From positions 1 to 64,000 of the forward strand of contig JAJYPN010000007.1 in the NCBI GenBank assembly GCA_021795395.1: DNA of 64,000 nt, given 5' to 3'. The position numbers and the translations under genes are program-made. Below, piece by piece: positions 8,229 through 28,152 of the stretch (position 1 is its first letter; each line of letters opens with the position of its first letter). The notes under the pieces are model-generated. The model was given only the letters and a program-made list of their open reading frames with translations, did no database searches and was not told where the DNA came from. Origin of the DNA: Pseudomonadota bacterium. GTDB lineage: Bacteria; Pseudomonadota; Gammaproteobacteria; Burkholderiales; Sulfuriferulaceae.

Positions 8229-8404
8229 TTAAGCTTGAACGTCGTGCCGCAATAAGGGCACAAGGCCGTGCCTGTCTCGGTCACATCGAGAAAGACGCGC
8301 GGATGCGAGTTCCAGGCGATCATTTCGGGGGTCGGGCAATGCAGCGGTAAATCGGCGGCGGTCACTTCTATGCAACGTTGTTTATTATCGTGCGGAATCA
8401 TCAT
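8201..8404 (-). CDS. zf-CHCC zinc-finger domain protein
   Basis: 67 residues. The sequence shows C-P-T-P-E, H-P-R-V-F-L-D-V and C-P-Y-C-G, which is the Cys-His-Cys-Cys pattern of the zf-CHCC family (related to the NDUFS6 subunit of mitochondrial complex I). A gene of this family next to ilvE is a common arrangement in betaproteobacteria, but its function is unknown. It follows ilvE by 6 nt, so the two are surely co-transcribed. Two ATGs stand in tandem (8404 and 8401); the second is better spaced from the AAGGGG box. Confidence 0.85.
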   Translation of the reverse strand: MMIPHDNKQRCIEVTAADLPLHCPTPEMIAWNSHPRVFLDVTETGTALCPYCGTTFKLKAGEVVHGH

Positions 8405-8410
8405 CGCCCC

Positions 8411-9331
8411 TTACACATAACTTAACCAATCCGCATGCCTGGCGTCGCGGCCGTGCACGCAGTCGAAATACATGGTTTGCAATTCCGTGGTGACCGGCCC
8501 GCGTTTTCCCTCGCCGATGACGCGATTATCCAGCTCGCGGATCGGCGTCACCTCAGCGGCCGTGCCGGTAAAAAACGCTTCATCGGCACCGTATACTTCG
8601 TCGCGGGTAATGCGCTTCTCTATGACCCGCAAGCCGATGTCGCCGGCAAGCTGTACGATACTGTCGCGGGTGATGCCTTCGAGCGCGCTGGTCAGATCGG
8701 GAGTATACAGCGTGCCGTTGCGTACGATAAATATGTTCTCGCCGGAACCTTCCGCAACGAAGCCGTCGACATCCAGCAGCAGCGCTTCTTCGTAGCCGTC
8801 CTGCGCCGCTTCCTGATGAGCGAGTATCGAATTCATGTAGTTGCCGTTGGCCTTGGCTTTGCACATCGTCACATTGACATGATGCCGGGCAAAGGAAGCA
8901 GTTTTGACGCGTATGCCGCGCTCCAATGCATCGGCGCCCATGTACGCGCCCCACGTCCAGGCGGCAACGATGACGTGACTGGACAGAATCTTCGCCGATA
9001 TGCCCATCGCTTCGGCACCGTAAAATACCATCGGGCGCAAATACGCCGATTCGAGGTGATTGTCCCGCACTACCGCCTTTTGTGCAGCGGTCAGCGCTGC
9101 CTTGTCGAAGGGCATTTTCATGCCCAGAATATGGGCGGAGCGAAACAAGCGATCGGTATGTTCCCCGAGACGGAAAATGGCGGTTCCCTGCTCGGTTTTA
9201 TACGCGCGCACGCCTTCGAATACACCCATGCCGTAATGCAGCGTATGCGTCAAAACATGCGTGGTGGCATCGCGCCACGGTACCATTTTACCATCGTACC
9301 AGATCAAACCGTCGCGATCGGACATAGACAT
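8411..9331 (-). CDS. ilvE: Branched-chain amino acid aminotransferase
   Basis: 306 residues, fold-type IV PLP enzyme. The PLP lysine is K160 in C-K-A-K-A-N-G-N-Y. The N-terminal L-H-Y-G-M-G-V-F-E-G-V-R-A-Y and the E-G-S-G-E-N-I-F motif are characteristic of BCAT rather than of D-amino acid aminotransferases. It performs the last step of valine, leucine and isoleucine synthesis with glutamate as donor. The ATG has TGGAG upstream. It leads a two-gene unit with the zf-CHCC gene. The 128 nt between it and the end of the upstream selD-like gene contain a perfect palindrome (TCCTGATCAGGA, near 9427) without a T-run. Confidence 0.95.
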   Translation of the reverse strand: MSMSDRDGLIWYDGKMVPWRDATTHVLTHTLHYGMGVFEGVRAYKTEQGTAIFRLGEHTDRLFRSAHILGMKMPFDKAALTAAQKAVVRDNHLESAYLRPMVFYGAEAMGISAKILSSHVIVAAWTWGAYMGADALERGIRVKTASFARHHVNVTMCKAKANGNYMNSILAHQEAAQDGYEEALLLDVDGFVAEGSGENIFIVRNGTLYTPDLTSALEGITRDSIVQLAGDIGLRVIEKRITRDEVYGADEAFFTGTAAEVTPIRELDNRVIGEGKRGPVTTELQTMYFDCVHGRDARHADWLSYV

Positions 9332-9459
9332 TGCTTTTTACTCCAGAAACTATAAATTGAATGAATTCGAAATTGTAACCGAAATTTGCGCTTGCAGCCG
9401 TGCATTTGCCGCGCGAGCATCGATTCCTGATCAGGATCTGTCCCGTTATCGGCAAGCGC

Positions 9460-10518
9460 TCAGACCGAAACCTTGATTCTGGCCGGACCCGCCGTCATTT
9501 CGCCGATTACCGCCGCATGCACGAAGCCTTCGCGGGCAAACTGCTCCAGCACCGCCTCCACCGATGCGTCGTCGCACGCGACCAGCAAACCGCCGGAAGT
9601 TTGAGGATCGCTCAAAAGCGCCTGCTGTATGGGTGTCGATGACGCGGGCAAATCGACCGCATGACCGTAACTGGCCCAGTTGCGCCCCGAAGCGCCGGTC
9701 ACAAAGCCACTTTTGGCGAGCTGCCGGACATTCGGCAGAATCGGAACGTGCGCCATATCGATCCGGGCACCCAGACCGGCGCCGCGCGCCATTTCCAGCA
9801 AATGCCCCAGCAAACCGAAACCGGTGACGTCAGTCATCGCATGGACTCCCGGCATATCGGACAAGGCGATGCCGGGCGTATTGAGTCGCGTCGTATTTTC
9901 CACCATCGCGGCATAGCCGGCCGCATCGAGCGCGCCTTTTTTCAAGGCAGCCGACATGATGCCGACGCCGAGCGGCTTGCCGAGTATCAATTTATCGCCG
10001 GCTCGGGCATACGCATTGCGTTTTACCTTCGACGGATGCACCAGACCCATCACTACCAGGCCGTAAATCGGTTCCATCGAATCGATCGTATGACCGCCGG
10101 CAATCGGGATGCGCGCTTCGGCGCAGATCGATTCGCCGCCCTGGATGATCCGGCCGATGATATCGACCGGCAATTTGTCGATCGGCATGCCCACCAATGC
10201 CAGCGCCATGATCGGCGTGCCACCCATCGCATAGACATCGGAAATGGCGTTGGTCGCGGCGATCCGGCCGAAATCGTAGGGATCGTCGACGATGGGCATG
10301 AAGAAATCCGTCGTCGCGATCAGCGCCTGCTCGTCGTTGAGCTGATAGACGGCGGCATCGTCGGACGTTTCGATCCCGACCAGCAAGGCTTGGGGAACCG
10401 GAAACCCGGCAGAATTTTTCAGGATTTCGGCGAGTACCCCCGGCGCGATTTTACAGCCGCAGCCGCCGCCGTGCGAGAAAGAAGTCAATTTGATGTTGTC
10501 GTGTTGAAGTACGTTCAT
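9460..10518 (-). CDS. senC: Selenide, water dikinase; selenophosphate synthetase of a selenoneine cluster
   Basis: 352 residues, SelD family: makes selenophosphate from selenide and ATP. The N-terminal glycine-rich loop G-G-G-C-G-C-K has the active cysteine (C20, not selenocysteine) and the lysine (K23) equivalent to E. coli C17/K20. The P-loop-type A-T-T-D-F-F and later D-V-T-G-F-G-L-L-G-H are family signatures. It lies 16 nt after a TIGR04348-type glycosyltransferase and downstream of an EgtB-like gene, the order reported for selenoneine clusters, in which the SelD homologue is called SenC. It could also serve tRNA selenation if SelU is encoded elsewhere; in that case the symbol selD would apply equally. 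Confidence 0.9.
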   Translation of the reverse strand: MNVLQHDNIKLTSFSHGGGCGCKIAPGVLAEILKNSAGFPVPQALLVGIETSDDAAVYQLNDEQALIATTDFFMPIVDDPYDFGRIAATNAISDVYAMGGTPIMALALVGMPIDKLPVDIIGRIIQGGESICAEARIPIAGGHTIDSMEPIYGLVVMGLVHPSKVKRNAYARAGDKLILGKPLGVGIMSAALKKGALDAAGYAAMVENTTRLNTPGIALSDMPGVHAMTDVTGFGLLGHLLEMARGAGLGARIDMAHVPILPNVRQLAKSGFVTGASGRNWASYGHAVDLPASSTPIQQALLSDPQTSGGLLVACDDASVEAVLEQFAREGFVHAAVIGEMTAGPARIKVSV

Positions 10519-10534
10519 GTATATCCTTTATCTT

Positions 10535-11539
10535 TCATCGAAACGGTCCGGAAATATCCGGTGCCGCATTACGTGCATCGATTGAATTGTCCATCAATTT
10601 CAATACCGCCGTCCGTTCCCGTTCCGGCATAAACAAATGGGCGCGAGCTGCGCACTGCGCCTGCAACCAAGCATAAAACGCATTATCGGTCGCCGCCGAC
10701 TCGATCAGGCGCGCTAACGCCAGACTGTCGCCGAGCGGAAAATAACCTGCGTAATCGGCACCCAGCATGCCGCGATTTCCAGGAATGTCGCTGGCCAGGA
10801 CCGGTACGCCGCTGGTAACGGCTTCGATAATAACATTGGCGCCACCTTCCATGACAGACGCAATGATCATCAGATGGCTACGTTTCAAACGCTGCCGGGT
10901 CAGCGCGCGGGGCAAATGCCCCAGCCAGCGATAATGCGGATGTGCATCGTGAGTACCTCGGGCATGAAGAGCGAATTCGGGATCGAGCGCGCCACCGATA
11001 TGCAGCAAACGAATGCGGCGGTCATTAATATGCATTGCGGCGCGCATAAAGGTCAAGGGATCTTTTTCATGACGCAAATGACCGACCATGGTGACATCGA
11101 AATGCCGCATACGCTGCTTCAGCTCCATGGGCACAGGTTTGAGCACGCGCGCCGATTGATATATGACCGTCGTTCTGTCGCGCAATTCCGGATCGAGTTC
11201 CAGCAATCCTTCCGGTTGCAACACTACCCTATGCGTAGCCAATTGCAGCGAGCGTCTGCCATCGACATCGGTTCCTATATCACGGTACAAATCGGTGCCG
11301 GTCAGTACCAGCACCAGCGGCAACGAGGGATGCGCCGCGGCAAACGCCGCTATCGACGATGCGGAACGCCGGGCATGCAGCGCAATCATGGCATCGCACG
11401 ACCTCCCATCCCAGGACAAAGCCAGCGTTACCCGATAACGCTCACGCAGGAAACCAGCCCACCGGCTAGCCGTGAGCCAATTGCCGTTGTTGGTTTTAGC
11501 CGATGCTGGTGTCACTATGTAAATATGCGGTTTGACCAT
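10535..11539 (-). CDS. senB: Selenosugar synthase-type glycosyltransferase
   Basis: 334 residues, GT-B fold of the TIGR04348 type. It opens I-Y-I-V-T-P-A-S-A-K-T-N-N-G-N-W and carries the retaining-GT motif E-G-G-A-N-V-I-I-E-A (E231, E239), expected for sugar-nucleotide binding. In characterised selenoneine clusters SenB joins selenophosphate to a UDP-N-acetylhexosamine, forming a 1-seleno-sugar. No transmembrane segment or signal peptide. It lies between the EgtB-like gene (78 nt upstream) and the SelD gene (16 nt downstream). Assignment rests on family recognition plus this context; by itself it would only be called a glycosyltransferase. Confidence 0.85.
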   Translation of the reverse strand: MVKPHIYIVTPASAKTNNGNWLTASRWAGFLRERYRVTLALSWDGRSCDAMIALHARRSASSIAAFAAAHPSLPLVLVLTGTDLYRDIGTDVDGRRSLQLATHRVVLQPEGLLELDPELRDRTTVIYQSARVLKPVPMELKQRMRHFDVTMVGHLRHEKDPLTFMRAAMHINDRRIRLLHIGGALDPEFALHARGTHDAHPHYRWLGHLPRALTRQRLKRSHLMIIASVMEGGANVIIEAVTSGVPVLASDIPGNRGMLGADYAGYFPLGDSLALARLIESAATDNAFYAWLQAQCAARAHLFMPERERTAVLKLMDNSIDARNAAPDISGPFR

Positions 11540-11617
11540 TTTTCCAAATGCTATCGATGTGCGTGGGTTACGATTTTGATCTGCCGACGACCATCCGGCA
11601 AAAATAAGCGATTAAAC

Positions 11618-12820
11618 TTACAGCGCACAGGTTCTGAATCCGGCGAACAGATCATCCCGGTGCGGCATGAAAAAATTACGATACACCGGCGAGCGCATGC
11701 GTGTTTGCGTTGCGAACGACGCTCCGCGCAATACCTGATGCGTTTTGAACCAGGGAACCGAATATTCCCGATAGGCATCGGACGTAAAGCCGGGATAGGG
11801 TTCGAATGGCGAACGGGTCCATTCCCACAAATCGCCCCATCGAAAATCCCGGTTGCCGGAACGGGCGGCAAATTCCCATTCGCCCTCGCCGGGCAATCGC
11901 CGTCCCGCCCAGCGACAAAACGCCTGCGCTTCATGCAGATTGACATGACGCACCGGTTCTTCGGGACGCAAGGATACCAAGCTTCCGAAACGCTCAACAT
12001 ACCAATCGCCGTCAACCCGCCGCCAGTAACGCGGCGCCGCACGCTGCTGCCGCGCCAGCCAGGCGCCGGCGGAATCGGGCCACAATGCAGCCTGCTCATA
12101 ACCGCCATCCTCGACGAAAGCGGCGTATTGAGCATTCGATATCAGACTCGAATCGATAGCGAATGGAGGCACGGTAACCGGATGCGCCCATTTCTCATTA
12201 TCGAATACAAAGCCCTGATCGGGCTCGCTTCCCAAACAGAATTCGCCACCGGAGTATCGAATTTCCATCGGCGATGCAATGTCACAATCCGCCGATGCGA
12301 GCACGGATGGCGCAGATATGCCCAAGGTCTGCAAGGTATAGGCAAACGCTTCGCCATGCATGTCCTCATGCGCCAGCGACAGTCGGTACGCATATAGTGC
12401 AGCATTGTCCTGACCAGCCTGATCGAGCTTATCCAGCGTACGCTCGAAAACGTCGCGGCAATAGGTTTTGATCGCAGCGGTGCCGGGCAGATTCAGCGAC
12501 CAGCGCGTGCGGTGCGGCACCGCATTCGAATCGAACCAGCGGTCGCTGCCATCGAGCAGTGAAGGATAGCGGGCGCTGCCGGGATTGCTTGATGCCGCCT
12601 CGCGCAACAGGAACAATTCGCCGAACCAGGATACATGCCCCAATTCCCACAGCGGCGGATTGACGATAGCAAGGTAAGGCACCTGATCTGCGGTGTCCAA
12701 TCCGGCCGCCGCGAACCGCTCGAACAGCGACAGCGTGCGGCTGCGAGCATCCCGCATCGCAGCCGCCAACCCGGAGGGCGTCGCGATACGGAAAGATGGG
12801 TTGGCTGGCTCTTCCGTCAT
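11618..12820 (-). CDS. senA: Selenoneine synthase-type EgtB homologue
   Basis: 400 residues from the ATG at 12820; an earlier ATG at 12886 would overlap the pirin gene and has no ribosome site. An N-terminal DinB-like four-helix domain (1-160) holds the iron ligands: H62 in E-L-G-H-V and the H-x3-H-x-E motif (H151, H155, E157). A C-terminal FGE-sulfatase/SUMF1 domain (about 185-400) has W-E-F-A-A-R and ends L-R-G-A-S-F-A ... G-F-R-T-C. EgtB-like enzymes make a C-S or C-Se bond to the imidazole of hercynine with O2; with SenB and SenC next door the selenosugar is the likely donor. An ergothioneine-type role cannot be excluded from sequence alone. Confidence 0.85.
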   Translation of the reverse strand: MTEEPANPSFRIATPSGLAAAMRDARSRTLSLFERFAAAGLDTADQVPYLAIVNPPLWELGHVSWFGELFLLREAASSNPGSARYPSLLDGSDRWFDSNAVPHRTRWSLNLPGTAAIKTYCRDVFERTLDKLDQAGQDNAALYAYRLSLAHEDMHGEAFAYTLQTLGISAPSVLASADCDIASPMEIRYSGGEFCLGSEPDQGFVFDNEKWAHPVTVPPFAIDSSLISNAQYAAFVEDGGYEQAALWPDSAGAWLARQQRAAPRYWRRVDGDWYVERFGSLVSLRPEEPVRHVNLHEAQAFCRWAGRRLPGEGEWEFAARSGNRDFRWGDLWEWTRSPFEPYPGFTSDAYREYSVPWFKTHQVLRGASFATQTRMRSPVYRNFFMPHRDDLFAGFRTCAL

Positions 12821-12861
12821 GTAGTCATCTCGTGCCTTACTGAAATAGGGGATATCCGCAA

Positions 12862-13572
12862 CTAATCCAACGGTACTTCGATACATAATATCTGTATATT
12901 ATCCAGCGCTTCAATATCGATACTTGATAAATCGAACAAGCCTATCGCGTCGCGCTCGTTGGCCAACTCACCATCTATCATGGCCTGACCTCGAATCAAA
13001 AAGAGATAGATGGCGTTACCCTGCTTTTTTACCGGATAAATTGCTTTTGATCCCGCATCCAGATCGGCCATCGAAAAATAGGCGTCCTGATTGATCCACA
13101 GCGAACCATCCTGCCGATCCGGGGATATCAGCGTCTGGAAACGGCCTCTGCGTTCCGCCTCATCGAATAGTTTTTGCTCGTAATGCGGTTCGATATTTCT
13201 TTGTTTCGGAAGTATCCATATTTGCAGGAAATTCACCAGCTCATTATCGGAGCGATTGAACTCGGAATGCCGGATGCCCGTTCCCGCAGACATGACCTGC
13301 ACTTCACCCACGCGAATCTCATGGATATTTCCCATGCTGTCCTTATGCAGCAAAGCCCCTTGCAACGGGATGGAAACGATTTCCATATTATCGTGGGCAT
13401 GCGTATCGAAGCCCTGCCCAGGATCGACCGTATCGTCATTCAATACCCGCAGCATGCCGAAATTCATGCGTTCCGGATGATAATAGCCGGCAAAACTGAA
13501 GGTATGATAACTGCGCAACCAGCCATGATCGGCCACACCACGACTTTCGGCCTTGTGTACGATTTTCTTCAT
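12862..13572 (-). CDS. Pirin family protein (YhhW type)
   Basis: 236 residues from the ATG at 13572 (GGAG 8 nt upstream), a bicupin of the pirin/quercetinase family. Metal ligands are visible in the N-terminal cupin: D-T-H-A-H-D-N-M-E-I-V and, further on, G-I-R-H-S-E-F-N, giving three His and one Glu. YhhW-type pirins can show quercetin 2,3-dioxygenase activity in vitro, but their physiological substrate is unknown. It ends 41 nt before senA on the same strand, so it may be part of that transcript. Transcribed divergently from yjbQ. Confidence 0.88.
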   Translation of the reverse strand: MKKIVHKAESRGVADHGWLRSYHTFSFAGYYHPERMNFGMLRVLNDDTVDPGQGFDTHAHDNMEIVSIPLQGALLHKDSMGNIHEIRVGEVQVMSAGTGIRHSEFNRSDNELVNFLQIWILPKQRNIEPHYEQKLFDEAERRGRFQTLISPDRQDGSLWINQDAYFSMADLDAGSKAIYPVKKQGNAIYLFLIRGQAMIDGELANERDAIGLFDLSSIDIEALDNIQILCIEVPLD

Positions 13573-13754
13573 ATCATCTCCGTCTCGAAAGCAACTATAA
13601 GATAAATCAAGCGCAACCACTATCGATTACGCTTATGGCTCGCCATCCTTGCCGATACAGCACGTAATGCTCATAATATTATTCGACGCAAGCATCTGTT
13701 GATGGAACAGTATTCGGCCTCTATATCATTACAAATCAATTCATGGAGAACTGC

Positions 13755-14174
13755 ATGTTACACTTCCGCAAGGAACTCTGGTTCAATATTCCGACCCGCC
13801 GGGCTTTCGTCAACATTACCGACCAGGTCAGCGCCTGCATCAAGGAAAGCCGCATCCGCGAAGGTTTGGTGCTGGTCAATGCAATGCACATCTCGGCATC
13901 GGTCTTCATTAATGATGACGAATCCGGCCTGCATCACGATTTTGAAGTGTTTCTCGAACGACTCGCCCCGCACGAACCGGTCGGCGCCTACCGCCACAAC
14001 GATACCGGCGAAGATAATGCCGATGCGCACATCAAACGCCAGATCATGGGACGCGAAACCGTCGTCGCCCTCACCGAAGGCAAACTTGACCTGGGGCCGT
14101 GGGAACAGATTTTTTACGGCGAATTCGACGGAAAACGCAGAAAACGCGTCCTGGTCAAGATCATCGGTGAGTAA
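13755..14174 (+). CDS. YjbQ family protein (UPF0047)
   Basis: 139 residues from the ATG at 13755, preferred over 13743 because GGAGAA lies 4-5 nt before it. The UPF0047 signature is present: T-R-R-A-F-V-N near the start, G-L-V-L-V-N-A-M-H, and [11 protein letters not shown] with the conserved histidine, then [11 protein letters not shown]. The family is annotated as 'secondary thiamine-phosphate synthase' from a weak complementing activity; its true role is unknown. A degraded copy of its 3' end lies 450 nt downstream (14620-14713). Confidence 0.88.
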
Positions 14175-14199
14175 ATACAAAGCTGGTTGGGTAGGGATA

Positions 14200-14250
14200 C
14201 TACCATGCTGAAATTATATGCCTGATGGTGTTACTGTCGAGAATCAGCAT
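14200..14250 (-). pseudogene. Stub of a VapC (PIN domain) toxin gene
   Basis: From an ATG at 14250 the frame reads M-L-I-L-D-S-N-T-I, the usual start of a VapC PIN domain with its first catalytic aspartate, but homology stops there and the frame closes after 16 codons, right beside the yjbQ stop. It directly follows the vapB remnant. The rest of the toxin has been deleted. Confidence 0.6.
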
Positions 14251-14259
14251 GTCTACCCA

Positions 14260-14487
14260 TCAAAAACCCGCTCGTGGCACATCCGCCGGCTGTGAAACCG
14301 TACTTTCCTCGCGCAGAGGAAGTCGGCAAAACTTCCCGCCAGCGCCAGGCAATCCCGAGGCCATTCATGCGCTGCGTATTTGCGGATAATGTCTGCCACC
14401 CAGCGCTTTTTGATACACCATTGGCCTGAGCAGTCTGCTCTACCAGCGTCTGTGGGGCATCATTCAGATAAGCGTGATTTGGGGCAT
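14260..14487 (-). pseudogene. Frameshifted VapB-type ribbon-helix-helix antitoxin
   Basis: An ATG at 14487 has AAGGAGAT upstream and begins M-P-Q-I-T-L, then hits a stop after seven codons. Adding one base restores Y-L-N-D-A-P-Q-T-L-V-E-Q-T-A-Q-A-N-G-V-S; a second restores R-W-V-A-D-I-I-R-K-Y-A-A-H-E-W-P; a third restores the end through F-A-D-F-P-L-R-E-E and A-G-F before TGA. This is the pattern of CopG-like VapB antitoxins, which end with such a W-P ... F-P segment. Three independent single-base losses mean it is dead. The AT-rich palindromic sequence at about 14519-14535 would be the old promoter/operator. Confidence 0.75.
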
Positions 14488-14619
14488 GGCGACATCTCCT
14501 TACAGTCAACCGCTTAGAGTATATTTTAAAGTATACGTGTCGCGCTCGGTTCGTCAAATTAAATATGTGCCGGTTCCATACCATTTCGTGCGCTTGACGA
14601 CGTGGACCCGCCTACCGCA

Positions 14620-24340: not shown

Positions 24341-26872
24341 CTATTTGCGCAGGCGTAAATATATTTCGGGCAATTTTTTTGGCAAATCGTTAATGTGATC
24401 GAGCACCAGATAATGACCCGCGCCGAATATCTGCGGCAAATACTCGCTGCCGGCTGCGTCCAGCGTGATACAGAACACATGTATGCCCGCATCGCCGGCT
24501 TCCTTCACCGCCATCCGCGTGTCCTCGTGCAGATAGCGTTCATCGCCGCCGTCATCGTAATCGGCCGGCCGGCCGTCCGACAGGATCAGCAACAAACGCC
24601 GCGCCGACGGCGCCCGGTCGAAACTGGCAACCGCATGGCGTATGGCTGCACCCATGCGTGTCGCCAGCCGCCCCGTCAGCCCGCCCAGCACGGCACGAGT
24701 ATGTGACGTCAGCGTCTCGTCAAACCCTTTGATCGTGTAATAACTGACATTGTCGCGATATTTCGAGGCAAATCCGGCCAGACCATAAGGATCACCCACT
24801 TCTTCCATGCTTTCCGCAAACAGCAGCATTGCAGCGCGGATGCGGTCGACGACCTTGCCGCCCCCCTCTGCACACGCCTGCATGATGGAAGTAGACATAT
24901 CGGCCAGCAATACGACGGCGGTATCGCGATACTGAACAACACGCTGGCGGTAAATATTCGCCTGCGGCGACATCCCCGCCCGTTTTTCGACGACATAAGT
25001 GATACTGGCTTCCAGGTCCAGTTCGTCGCCGTCGAATTGCCGTCTAAGCGGTGCCATCCGGATCGGTTTCTGCGTCTGTATGGCGCGTTTCAAACGTTGC
25101 AGCGCCGGAGCGTATTGCGCCAGCAGTCGAGTCGCTTCGTTGGCATCCAATTCGGTCAGCGTTTTTTCCTGCACCCAGGCCCAATTACGCTTATAGCGGT
25201 TGTCGCGATAATCCCATTCCGCATATGGTTTGCCTTTTTCGCTGTATTCGGCGCCTTTGGCATAACCCAGCACATGCGCGGGTTGCGGAATGCCGACGCC
25301 GACCCTGCCACCGGAGCCCGCGGTTTCTTCGGGCGGAATATCGAAATCGGGGTCTTCGCCGGCAGCATGTTTGGGTATCTGCTTCTGCTCGGGATTAGGC
25401 TTGATCTCCTGATTTTTGACAACATCTTCCTGATCTTCCAGCCCGGTACCGAATTCCGCCTGATCGAGCATACGGCGCGGATAAACCGGACGCGCCGCAT
25501 TCGGGCTGCGGCCCGGCAAAAAAGCCTGGTCGCGCGCCAACAGTGCTATAGCCGGCAAATCCGTATGTTTGTATAATTCGTTGGCGATTCTGAACGCATC
25601 GACTATATTCGCATCATTGCTCAACAAGGGACGCAGCGGTTCGAATACCGGATCGGCAGGAGCGCCTTCTATCGTCCATTGCAATAGGTCTCGCGCCCAA
25701 CGGAAATAGGCAGCGGCAGGCCCATCGACGATGGCGGCAGCATCAGCGGCGCGCAACAGGCGTTGGCGGTAATTCGGAATATGCCGACCAATCTGTTCAT
25801 CGACGCGCGTATCTTCGCAAATGTCGAAAATCAGCTGAAACCGTATCATGTCGTCACCGTACGCGGCAAACAGCGGCCGCCAGGTAATGCGCTGTTCCGC
25901 GTCGAGCGGCGGATGCTCGCGTCCGGCCGCGCGGAACAGGGCGTCGATATAGCGGCGTTCGTAAGAATGAAATTTTAAATGGCCTGTGGCGTGCAACACG
26001 GCCAGCATGGCTTCTTCCCGGTCAGGCAGCGCCATCGGCAGATACAGCGCAACGCCGTCGGTTTCGACGAAAGCACGGCCCTTATCAGGCGACCATTTGC
26101 TTTCCAGCAGATCAAGATTGAACCCGAACCACGCGTATATCACCAATTGCAATAAACGCTGATGTTCGGGGATGCGAAAACCCGGCAGGTTTTCCAGCAG
26201 CAGGGCCATGCTTTCTTCGGATTCCAGCTTGAAAAACGCTTCGCCTCTGAGGCGACCTGATTGAAGGATATCCGCGCCGCGTTTTGCCCAGGGCAGTACC
26301 GCCTCGATACCGAGCAGATTGCGCACCCGTATCGCACCGCTCAAATACGTACCGAGCGCGAGACGCCGGTTGCCGAACAATTCCACGCTGGGCAACACAA
26401 CGTCTTCTATGCCGTTAATACCGTGGCCGCCTTCCAGTTCAAGCACCGGACAGCGAAAATAGGCGACCCCGGAATCGAGATGCCGCTCGCACCAGTCGAG
26501 ACCGAGCTCAGCCCAACGCACTTCGCCTTCGAACCCGAGACTGCGGTAGGCTTGCGGCAACTGTTCCATGTAACCGTCCACCGCTTTCCATGAGCCGCGC
26601 CAGGCTAGAAAACGCATAGCCTGTCTGGTCCACGGCAAAACCGTATTGCTTGCGCCGCAGGCGGCTACGCTGCCACGCATGAAGGCTTTACCGGCATCGC
26701 GGTCGTGCTCGAACAAGGCCTTGCAAGCCTTGACCCATTCCAGTACGGTTTCATCGCCATAAGGCTGGATGGCGCCCAGAGCCGATTGCGTATCCCTGTG
26801 CGCGACAAAACTGATTTTTTCCAGATCGGCCAGAACTTGTTGAATCTCTGCAAGAATCTCTGTACTACTCAT
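24341..26872 (-). CDS. cbbO: CbbO-like VWA-domain protein (RuBisCO activase adaptor)
   Basis: 843 residues from the ATG at 26872. The C-terminal von Willebrand A domain (about 645-843) has an intact MIDAS D-M-S-T-S near residue 656 and D-G-R-P-A-D-Y. The N-terminal 450 residues form the helical CbbO/NorD-type region, joined by a low-complexity linker with N-Q-E-I-K-P-N-P-E-Q. In autotrophs CbbO binds RuBisCO through the VWA domain and a CbbQ AAA+ hexamer drives removal of inhibitory sugar phosphates. NorD of nitric oxide reductase clusters is a related family, shorter (about 640); length and the absence of nor genes favour CbbO. It follows cbbQ by 21 nt. Confidence 0.78.
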   Translation of the reverse strand: MSSTEILAEIQQVLADLEKISFVAHRDTQSALGAIQPYGDETVLEWVKACKALFEHDRDAGKAFMRGSVAACGASNTVLPWTRQAMRFLAWRGSWKAVDGYMEQLPQAYRSLGFEGEVRWAELGLDWCERHLDSGVAYFRCPVLELEGGHGINGIEDVVLPSVELFGNRRLALGTYLSGAIRVRNLLGIEAVLPWAKRGADILQSGRLRGEAFFKLESEESMALLLENLPGFRIPEHQRLLQLVIYAWFGFNLDLLESKWSPDKGRAFVETDGVALYLPMALPDREEAMLAVLHATGHLKFHSYERRYIDALFRAAGREHPPLDAEQRITWRPLFAAYGDDMIRFQLIFDICEDTRVDEQIGRHIPNYRQRLLRAADAAAIVDGPAAAYFRWARDLLQWTIEGAPADPVFEPLRPLLSNDANIVDAFRIANELYKHTDLPAIALLARDQAFLPGRSPNAARPVYPRRMLDQAEFGTGLEDQEDVVKNQEIKPNPEQKQIPKHAAGEDPDFDIPPEETAGSGGRVGVGIPQPAHVLGYAKGAEYSEKGKPYAEWDYRDNRYKRNWAWVQEKTLTELDANEATRLLAQYAPALQRLKRAIQTQKPIRMAPLRRQFDGDELDLEASITYVVEKRAGMSPQANIYRQRVVQYRDTAVVLLADMSTSIMQACAEGGGKVVDRIRAAMLLFAESMEEVGDPYGLAGFASKYRDNVSYYTIKGFDETLTSHTRAVLGGLTGRLATRMGAAIRHAVASFDRAPSARRLLLILSDGRPADYDDGGDERYLHEDTRMAVKEAGDAGIHVFCITLDAAGSEYLPQIFGAGHYLVLDHINDLPKKLPEIYLRLRK

Positions 26873-26893
26873 AATTGACCGCAAAGCGTCCGT

Positions 26894-27742
26894 TCACGAA
26901 AAATGCGCACGTATGATTTCCAGCAAGGCTTCGGCGAGCTCCGGGTCGTCCGTCACCGGACTCACCAGCGCAGCTTTACACGCCTCAAGTGGCGTTATGC
27001 CGGCTGCCATCATATTCGCCGCATACACCAGCGCGCGCGTCGACGTCGCCTCGTCCAGTCCGTGATCCTTCAAGGTCCGTGCCCGGCGGCCGGCGGCAAC
27101 CAGCGGCGCAAGCTGCGCTTCCGCCAGTTCGGGAACTTCGTTGCGGAGAATCTTGCGTTCGATGTCTTCGTTGGGGTAATTGAAATCAATGCCGATAAAG
27201 CGCTGTTTGGTCGAGGGTTTCAAATCTTTCAACACGGTCTGGTAACCGGGGTTGTAAGAGATGACCAGCATGAAATCTTCATGCGCCTCGATTTCCTGGC
27301 CCTTTTTCTCCAGCGGCAATTGCCGCCGGTGATCGGTCAGCGGATGAATAATGACGGTACTGTCGGTACGGGCTTCGACGATTTCATCCAGATAACAGAT
27401 GGCGCCGGCTTTGACAGCACGGGTTAACGGGCCGTCCTGCCAGACGGTTTGCTCACCTTCGAGCAAAAAGCGTCCCACCAGATCCGAACTGGTCAGATCT
27501 TCGTGACACGAAACCGTTACCAGCGGACGCTGCAAACGCCATGCCATGGCTTCGAGAAAACGGGTTTTGCCGCAACCGGTCGGTCCCTTGAGCATGACCG
27601 GCAGACGCTTTTTGTAAGCAGCCTCGAAAATCTCGATTTCATTGCCTTGCGCTTCGTAATACGGCCCGGCCGCAGTATCCTCCACCGGCATTTGTATGAT
27701 ATCGCGCTCGACTCCGCGCAATCGATTCAAAAAACCTTTCAT
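26894..27742 (-). CDS. cbbQ: CbbQ-like AAA+ ATPase (MoxR family)
   Basis: 282 residues from the ATG at 27742 (GGAG 6 nt upstream). Walker A is G-P-T-G-C-G-K-T, Walker B is A-I-C-Y-L-D-E-I, sensor 1 is V-I-S-Y-N-P-G-Y, and S-T-K-Q-R-F follows. P-Y-Y-E-A[12 protein letters not shown] at the N terminus and the closing T-D-D-P-E-L-A are typical of CbbQ/NorQ. It forms hexamers that work with CbbO on RuBisCO. The start overlaps the stop of the upstream 137-residue gene by ATGA, so the three genes are one operon. NorQ is the alternative name for close relatives. Confidence 0.82.
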
Positions 27743-28152
27743 GCCATCTCCAGACGCGCTTCGCGCATACAACGTGTTTTCATAAACAAATAAACATGGC
27801 GCAGGGTGCGCACCGCCATTTTTTCCGGATGCTGCGGCAAGGCATCGCACCGGTCCATAGTTATACAATTGCGGTAATACACAAGTTCCCGGCAATTATC
27901 GCGGATAGTATTCCACGAAGGGTCGCCTTTGATCAGTGCTTTAAATACATCGAGCAAGTCGTCGTCCGGGTTGGGAACGGCTTTTTCGCCGACATCGACG
28001 ATATACGCAATGATCAGCTGTTTGATCAATTGCATCGTTTGTTCAACGGTGCCGAGCAAATTCAGCGATAGCCGCTCATTCAAAATACGTTCGAGATCGG
28101 TGATTTGCTCATCGACCTGTTCAAAAGTCTGTATTAACGCGTGATGATCCAT
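27739..28152 (-). CDS. Unrecognised first gene of the cbbQO operon
   Basis: 137 residues, cytoplasmic, mostly helical. The first 70 residues suggest a coiled-coil start ([19 protein letters not shown]) and amphipathic helices; the rest has R-E-L-V-Y-Y-R-N-C and [14 protein letters not shown]. Three cysteines occur but no metal motif. I do not recognise a family. Its overlap with cbbQ shows translational coupling, so it may be an adaptor or assembly factor for the CbbQO complex; that role is inference. The Shine-Dalgarno is weak. Confidence 0.75.

Follow-up and report, generated by a model that had tools for sequence, protein, structure and literature searches.

The three genes at positions 9460–12820 of the window (the whole 64,000-nucleotide stretch analyzed, which lies on contig C2 of the draft genome) were judged, with a probability of about 0.92, to encode a complete pathway to selenoneine, a selenium-containing antioxidant; the judgment draws on homology, conserved residues, and gene linkage. 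As the preliminary description had stated, all three lie on one strand, here the minus strand; each is an intact ORF and exceeds the curated cut-off of its family. The putative selenoneine synthase gene, senA (11618..12820; 400 aa), specifies an EgtB-like non-haem iron enzyme; senB (10535..11539; 334 aa) specifies the predicted selenosugar synthase, a Se-glycosyltransferase of the GT-B type; and senC, or selD (9460..10518; 352 aa), 16 nt downstream of senB on the same strand, specifies the predicted selenide water dikinase (selenophosphate synthetase). The residues cited earlier for the trio were all found: H62, H151, and H155 in SenA, counted from the ATG at 12820 (an alternative in-frame start at 12886 would give 422 aa), E231-x7-E239 in SenB, and C20 and K23 within the HGGGCGCK motif of SelD. 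By analogy with EgtB, the three histidines are taken to be the iron ligands. The pathway itself is already known; the window cluster adds a candidate complete selenoneine producer, and one in which the hercynine source is pinpointed.

Family calls were judged by the curated NCBIfam cut-offs. SenA scored 523 bits against NF041186 (cut-off 420), SenB 425 bits against TIGR04348 (cut-off 300), and SelD 434 bits against TIGR00476 (cut-off 125) and 536 bits against NF002098; the names given to SenA and SenB thus withstood profile matching. The top PDB match of SenA was 8k5i, presumably the Variovorax paradoxus SenA, at 336 bits (E 3.5e-99); those of SenB were 8k5u, 8jjq, and 8fbx, with E values from 3e-79 to 1e-78 (1.2e-78 for 8fbx), and that of SelD was 3u0o (E 3.3e-101).

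SenA belongs to the EgtB superfamily and reached 290 bits with the EgtB model, as would a second ergothioneine synthase whose neighbors were coincidental. However, this score misses the EgtB cut-off (360) and falls 233 bits short of the protein's own SenA score, and a full EgtB adjoining EgtD is already present in the genome. A tree of 154 rows was built by a quick method with SH-aLRT support, duplicates and hits of <200 aligned residues having been dropped; in it, the window protein grouped with the characterized SenA 8k5i in a 113-row clade (support 98), and a separate EgtB clade of 32 rows (support 100) held 6qki and the genome's second homolog. A third group of nine rows was labeled OvoA-like by length and place only. 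Histidine occurred at the H62, H151, and H155 positions in 112, 108, and 107 of the 113 SenA rows, respectively. At 15 positions separating SenA from EgtB, picked from an alignment that already contained both proteins of this genome, the window protein was SenA-type throughout, 8k5i at 14, and the EgtB of contig C4 was EgtB-type at all 15. An EgtB paralog was therefore rejected as highly improbable on scores, tree, and diagnostic residues. Just as improbable is that the cluster makes another selenometabolite, e.g., ovoselenol by the OvsA pathway: OvsA, another selenoxide synthase of the superfamily, is one of the PDB matches of SenA, but OvsA 8ux5 scored only 200 bits against the 336 of 8k5i and is not the closest solved structure, and the window protein lies beyond the SenA equivalog cut-off. 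The ovoselenol route was rejected because OvsA scores lower than SenA, leaving selenoneine as the preferred product.

According to the published accounts, 8fbx is the V. paradoxus SenB (PMC10702425), and mutating N20, T23, K158, E231, or E239 of V. paradoxus SenB reduces or nearly abolishes activity, the N20 and T23 mutations having their greatest effect when combined (PMC10891094). The window counterparts (N20, T23, K159, E231, and E239) are all present. In a 108-row alignment of SenB hits of at least 230 residues, N20, K159, E231, and E239 were invariant, and position 23 was either T or S. The earlier view of SenB as a TIGR04348-type enzyme is thus sustained both by its score and by retention of the published catalytic residues.

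Hercynine is the common substrate of EgtB and SenA. The genome is a 92.8% complete draft of 2.54 Mb in 57 contigs, with contamination given as 0; its single EgtD match, of 407 bits (cut-off 290.9), is on contig C4, and the window was correctly said to contain none. EgtD is overlapped by four bases by the C4 EgtB, which scored 553 bits against the cut-off of 360. Hercynine had been proposed to be made elsewhere or taken up; the former stands, whereas uptake was rejected as not needed once EgtD was found. With the egtB-egtD pair on C4 and the sen trio, both the ergothioneine and the selenoneine pathways are encoded.

Profile searches of 150 genomes of the order with the SenA, EgtD, and SenB models gave 37, 61, and 46 genomes over cut-off, respectively. 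EgtD was over cut-off in 35 of the 37 SenA genomes (G030 has a partial match and G084 none); encoding both pathways is thus usual, being found in most sen carriers. SenB was over cut-off in 33 of the 37 and missed in G033, G059, G104, and G147; G104 has a SenB fragment and G147 a SenB match of 201 bits. Within the genus, SenA was over cut-off in two of 18 genomes, and in G161 it is cut by the contig end; because 15 of the 17 sister genomes have neither SenA over cut-off nor a fragment of the G161 type, the trait is patchy. One sister, G152, carries intact senA, selD, and egtD (L157 8983–12711), but of its senB only two short pieces are left, so that the selenosugar synthase has been lost naturally. 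A long protein resembling OvoA, in open frames of 613–803 aa, was observed in 13 of the 18 genomes, with no match in the window genome; four of the 13 (G150, G153, G155, and G162) also show an EgtB-like match. Within the genus, the ovothiol route may stand in for the ergothioneine/selenoneine routes, and vice versa.

Neither senA nor senB is a safe marker when taken singly. TIGR04348 passed SenB-like proteins in genomes that lack SenA over cut-off (13 of the 46 SenB genomes), and the SenB name alone is therefore no proof of selenoneine; four of these (G076, G113, G125, and G141) show a SenA-model match of 352–409 bits, whereas nine do not. In SenB-model proteins from nine genomes without SenA over cut-off (L200–L208), N20, T23, K159, E231, and E239 were kept in all nine, and in L200 and L205, SelD occurs within the same stretch. 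At least five (L202, L203, L204, L206, and L207) share a common chromosomal setting near a gene that we take to be MotB-like. Conversely, deep inside the SenA clade, four proteins have H151 replaced by Y and H155 by R (L064 5613–6794, L067 10001–11182, L075 10001–11182, and L082 10001–11188), and a fifth (L076 10001–11182) has only the H155 to R change. The four lie near egtD-egtB; L076 has no egtD-egtB in its flanks, and neither senB nor senC was found in the flanking stretches of any of the five. They are candidates for proteins of SenA descent in which the iron site was lost; a SenA homolog lacking H151 and H155 occurs, for example, in Noviherbaspirillum autotrophicum. Such SenA relatives, in which two iron ligands are missing, and the SenB relatives from genomes with no SenA warn against single-gene naming of selenoneine producers, and they point to possible unknown selenium chemistry.

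Gene order was compared in 114 loci (80 named records and 34 further genome stretches), a sample biased to relatives of the window SenA; 18 in which senB was not hit within 1.5 kb of senA, in several cases because the stretch is short, were dropped. In the other 96, senA and senB are divergent in 94, convergent in one (L210), and co-directional in one (L156, from genome G161); senB and senC lie on one strand in 72 of 73 loci. In this sample, then, few loci are co-directional like the window; G161, its nearest relative, has the order too, and a common ancestor of the two is its probable origin.

A gene for a pirin-family cupin (12862..13620, minus strand; PF02678 and PF17954), not a known sen gene, lies directly upstream of senA, 41 nt before its start and on the same strand. 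It is possibly the first gene of a four-gene transcription unit with senA, senB, and senC. No pirin match was obtained in the stretches of the 114 other sen loci, many of which are short, and the G161 contig ends inside senA. On C4, a second pirin-like gene (L096 12318–13253), read by eye, follows egtD at a distance of about 3.4 kb, which is possibly a coincidence. The downstream neighbor by position, outside the pathway, is a branched-chain aminotransferase family gene (8411..9331, minus strand), which we take from its sequence to be ilvE; of the 17 other genus genomes, 14 hold copies of 83–90% identity. Three sister stretches were viewed for an empty-site comparison (L190, L191, and L193), and upstream of ilvE in L190 and L191 is a presumably GlnE-like gene; the ilvE contig of G161 ends at the site upstream of ilvE. 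Promoter and terminator scans of 8300–14600 were uninformative: they gave seven promoter-like and eight terminator-like sites, and shuffles averaged 6.1 and 7.4, respectively. Elsewhere in the window, 24344–27895 encodes a CbbQ-type AAA ATPase and a VWA protein, presumably CbbO-like, which fits a RuBisCO user.

In the SenA tree, the closest partner of the window protein is that of G161 (support 98); L016, L061, L021, and L028, MAGs labeled Betaproteobacteria, Nitrosomonadales, and Gallionella, join next (support 96), and the surrounding group is otherwise mostly Oxalobacteraceae and other Burkholderiales records. Selenoneine synthesis had been called unusual for a likely lithoautotroph; this claim is weak, since MAGs labeled Gallionella and Nitrosomonadales are among the nearest relatives of SenA. 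Among open-licence literature, no paper was found on selenoneine with Gallionella or with Noviherbaspirillum, or on SelD together with MnmH. In G161, L016, L028, L061, and G152, egtD sits beside the sen genes; loss of such a sen-linked egtD from the window lineage was considered and is no more than possible, as the EgtD tree (24 rows, with long branches) does not group the EgtD of G161 with that of L016.

A SelD tree of 58 rows was made from a chosen part of the loci, hits of <250 residues having been dropped. The window SelD pairs with those of G161 and L016 (100/97). The three belong to a 40-member set of sen-linked SelDs (99/92) that includes the G152 protein, and the window SelD is separate from the 14 remaining SelD rows of its genus (98/89); not all sen-linked SelDs fall within the set, that of L107 lying outside. 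Of the 18 genus genomes, 17 have one SelD over cut-off each and G154 has none; in the three with sen genes (that of the window, G152, and G161, which is 64% complete), this one SelD is the sen-linked copy. The non-sen selD of sister stretches is divergent from mnmH in 11 of 14; no mnmH was seen in L166, L167, and L170, and in L166 and L170 selD is near a contig end. The window genome has MnmH, the tRNA 2-selenouridine synthase, on contig C17 (319 bits against a cut-off of 219.75), with no selD in the 10.5 kb read around its gene (L097). This MnmH is only 41–47% identical to those of the sisters and may therefore have a different history too. The sen copy is the only SelD over cut-off, the next match reaching 57 bits against 125, and SelA gave no match in the profile search; the draft being in 57 contigs and 92.8% complete, both statements can be wrong.

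We infer that the sen cluster was probably acquired together with its SelD and that the genus SelD may have been lost. Since senC is the only selD detected, groups with sen-linked SelDs, and coexists with MnmH, a probably acquired cluster seems to supply selenophosphate for tRNA; in this 92.8% complete genome, SenC would probably feed both SenB and MnmH. The full scenario, in which the acquired SelD replaced the native one, serves both selenoneine synthesis and tRNA selenation, possibly with pirin, and the divergent layout was rebuilt as a unidirectional one, is put forward tentatively, at slightly less than even odds. It would suggest how the cluster spreads, its SelD, grouping with sen-linked SelDs, standing in for that of the genus; if true, a gene of natural-product synthesis would have taken over supply for RNA modification.

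The possibility that the sen genes are relics or were misbinned, the pathway being unused, has to be weighed against both intactness and context. The patchiness within the genus and the senB remnants of G152, which retains senA and selD, are in its favor. The tetranucleotide profile of the sen stretch correlates with that of the rest of the window at 0.94, but the Herminiimonas locus L025 gives an equal 0.94 and sister stretches a lower 0.77–0.87, so composition does not settle the question. Against it, the three ORFs are intact with key residues kept, contamination is listed as 0, and nrdA, purU, and ilvE, which share the contig, are 82–91% identical to the genus copies where these occur in the sister stretches compared; the same cluster also occurs in G161, of the same genus, at 77–89% identity. 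Contamination was rejected because the neighbors are genus-like, and an unused or misassigned pathway was considered very unlikely. A functional selenoneine cluster remains the preferred reading.

In the pathway proposed, SenC would convert selenide and ATP to selenophosphate, and SenB would join selenium to a UDP-sugar to form a selenosugar. SenA, with iron and oxygen, would then couple the selenosugar to hercynine, elimination and reduction yielding selenoneine. Hercynine would be supplied by the EgtD of contig C4, and ergothioneine would be made by the EgtB that overlaps it. The sen-type SelD, as the only selenophosphate source detected, would probably also supply MnmH for tRNA 2-selenouridine. 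The chemistry of the pathway steps has been published for relatives (a news piece, PMC9814287; two papers on SenB structure, PMC10891094 and PMC10702425; and a review, PMC13188914). The same reactions are expected of the window proteins from their homology, residues, and gene linkage.

The sen cluster of V. paradoxus (SenA 8k5i/8ryz, SenB 8fbx, and SenC) has the same three gene products as the window. Relative to the sen loci compared here, the window differs in being co-directional where senA and senB are divergent in 94 of 96. The likeness is closest to G161 (L156), of the same genus, in which senA, senB, and senC lie on one strand in the same order and are 77% (for the partial senA), 82%, and 89% identical. 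Unlike the window, where the neighbor is ilvE, the G161 locus has egtD adjoining and facing senC, with a gene beyond it that is presumably MutS2-like. The egtB-egtD pair on C4 (EgtB structures 6o6l, 8qf6, and 6qki) shares its superfamily with SenA, but the C4 EgtB is distinct in using sulfur rather than selenium, and it scored 553 bits with the EgtB model against 342 bits with the SenA model.
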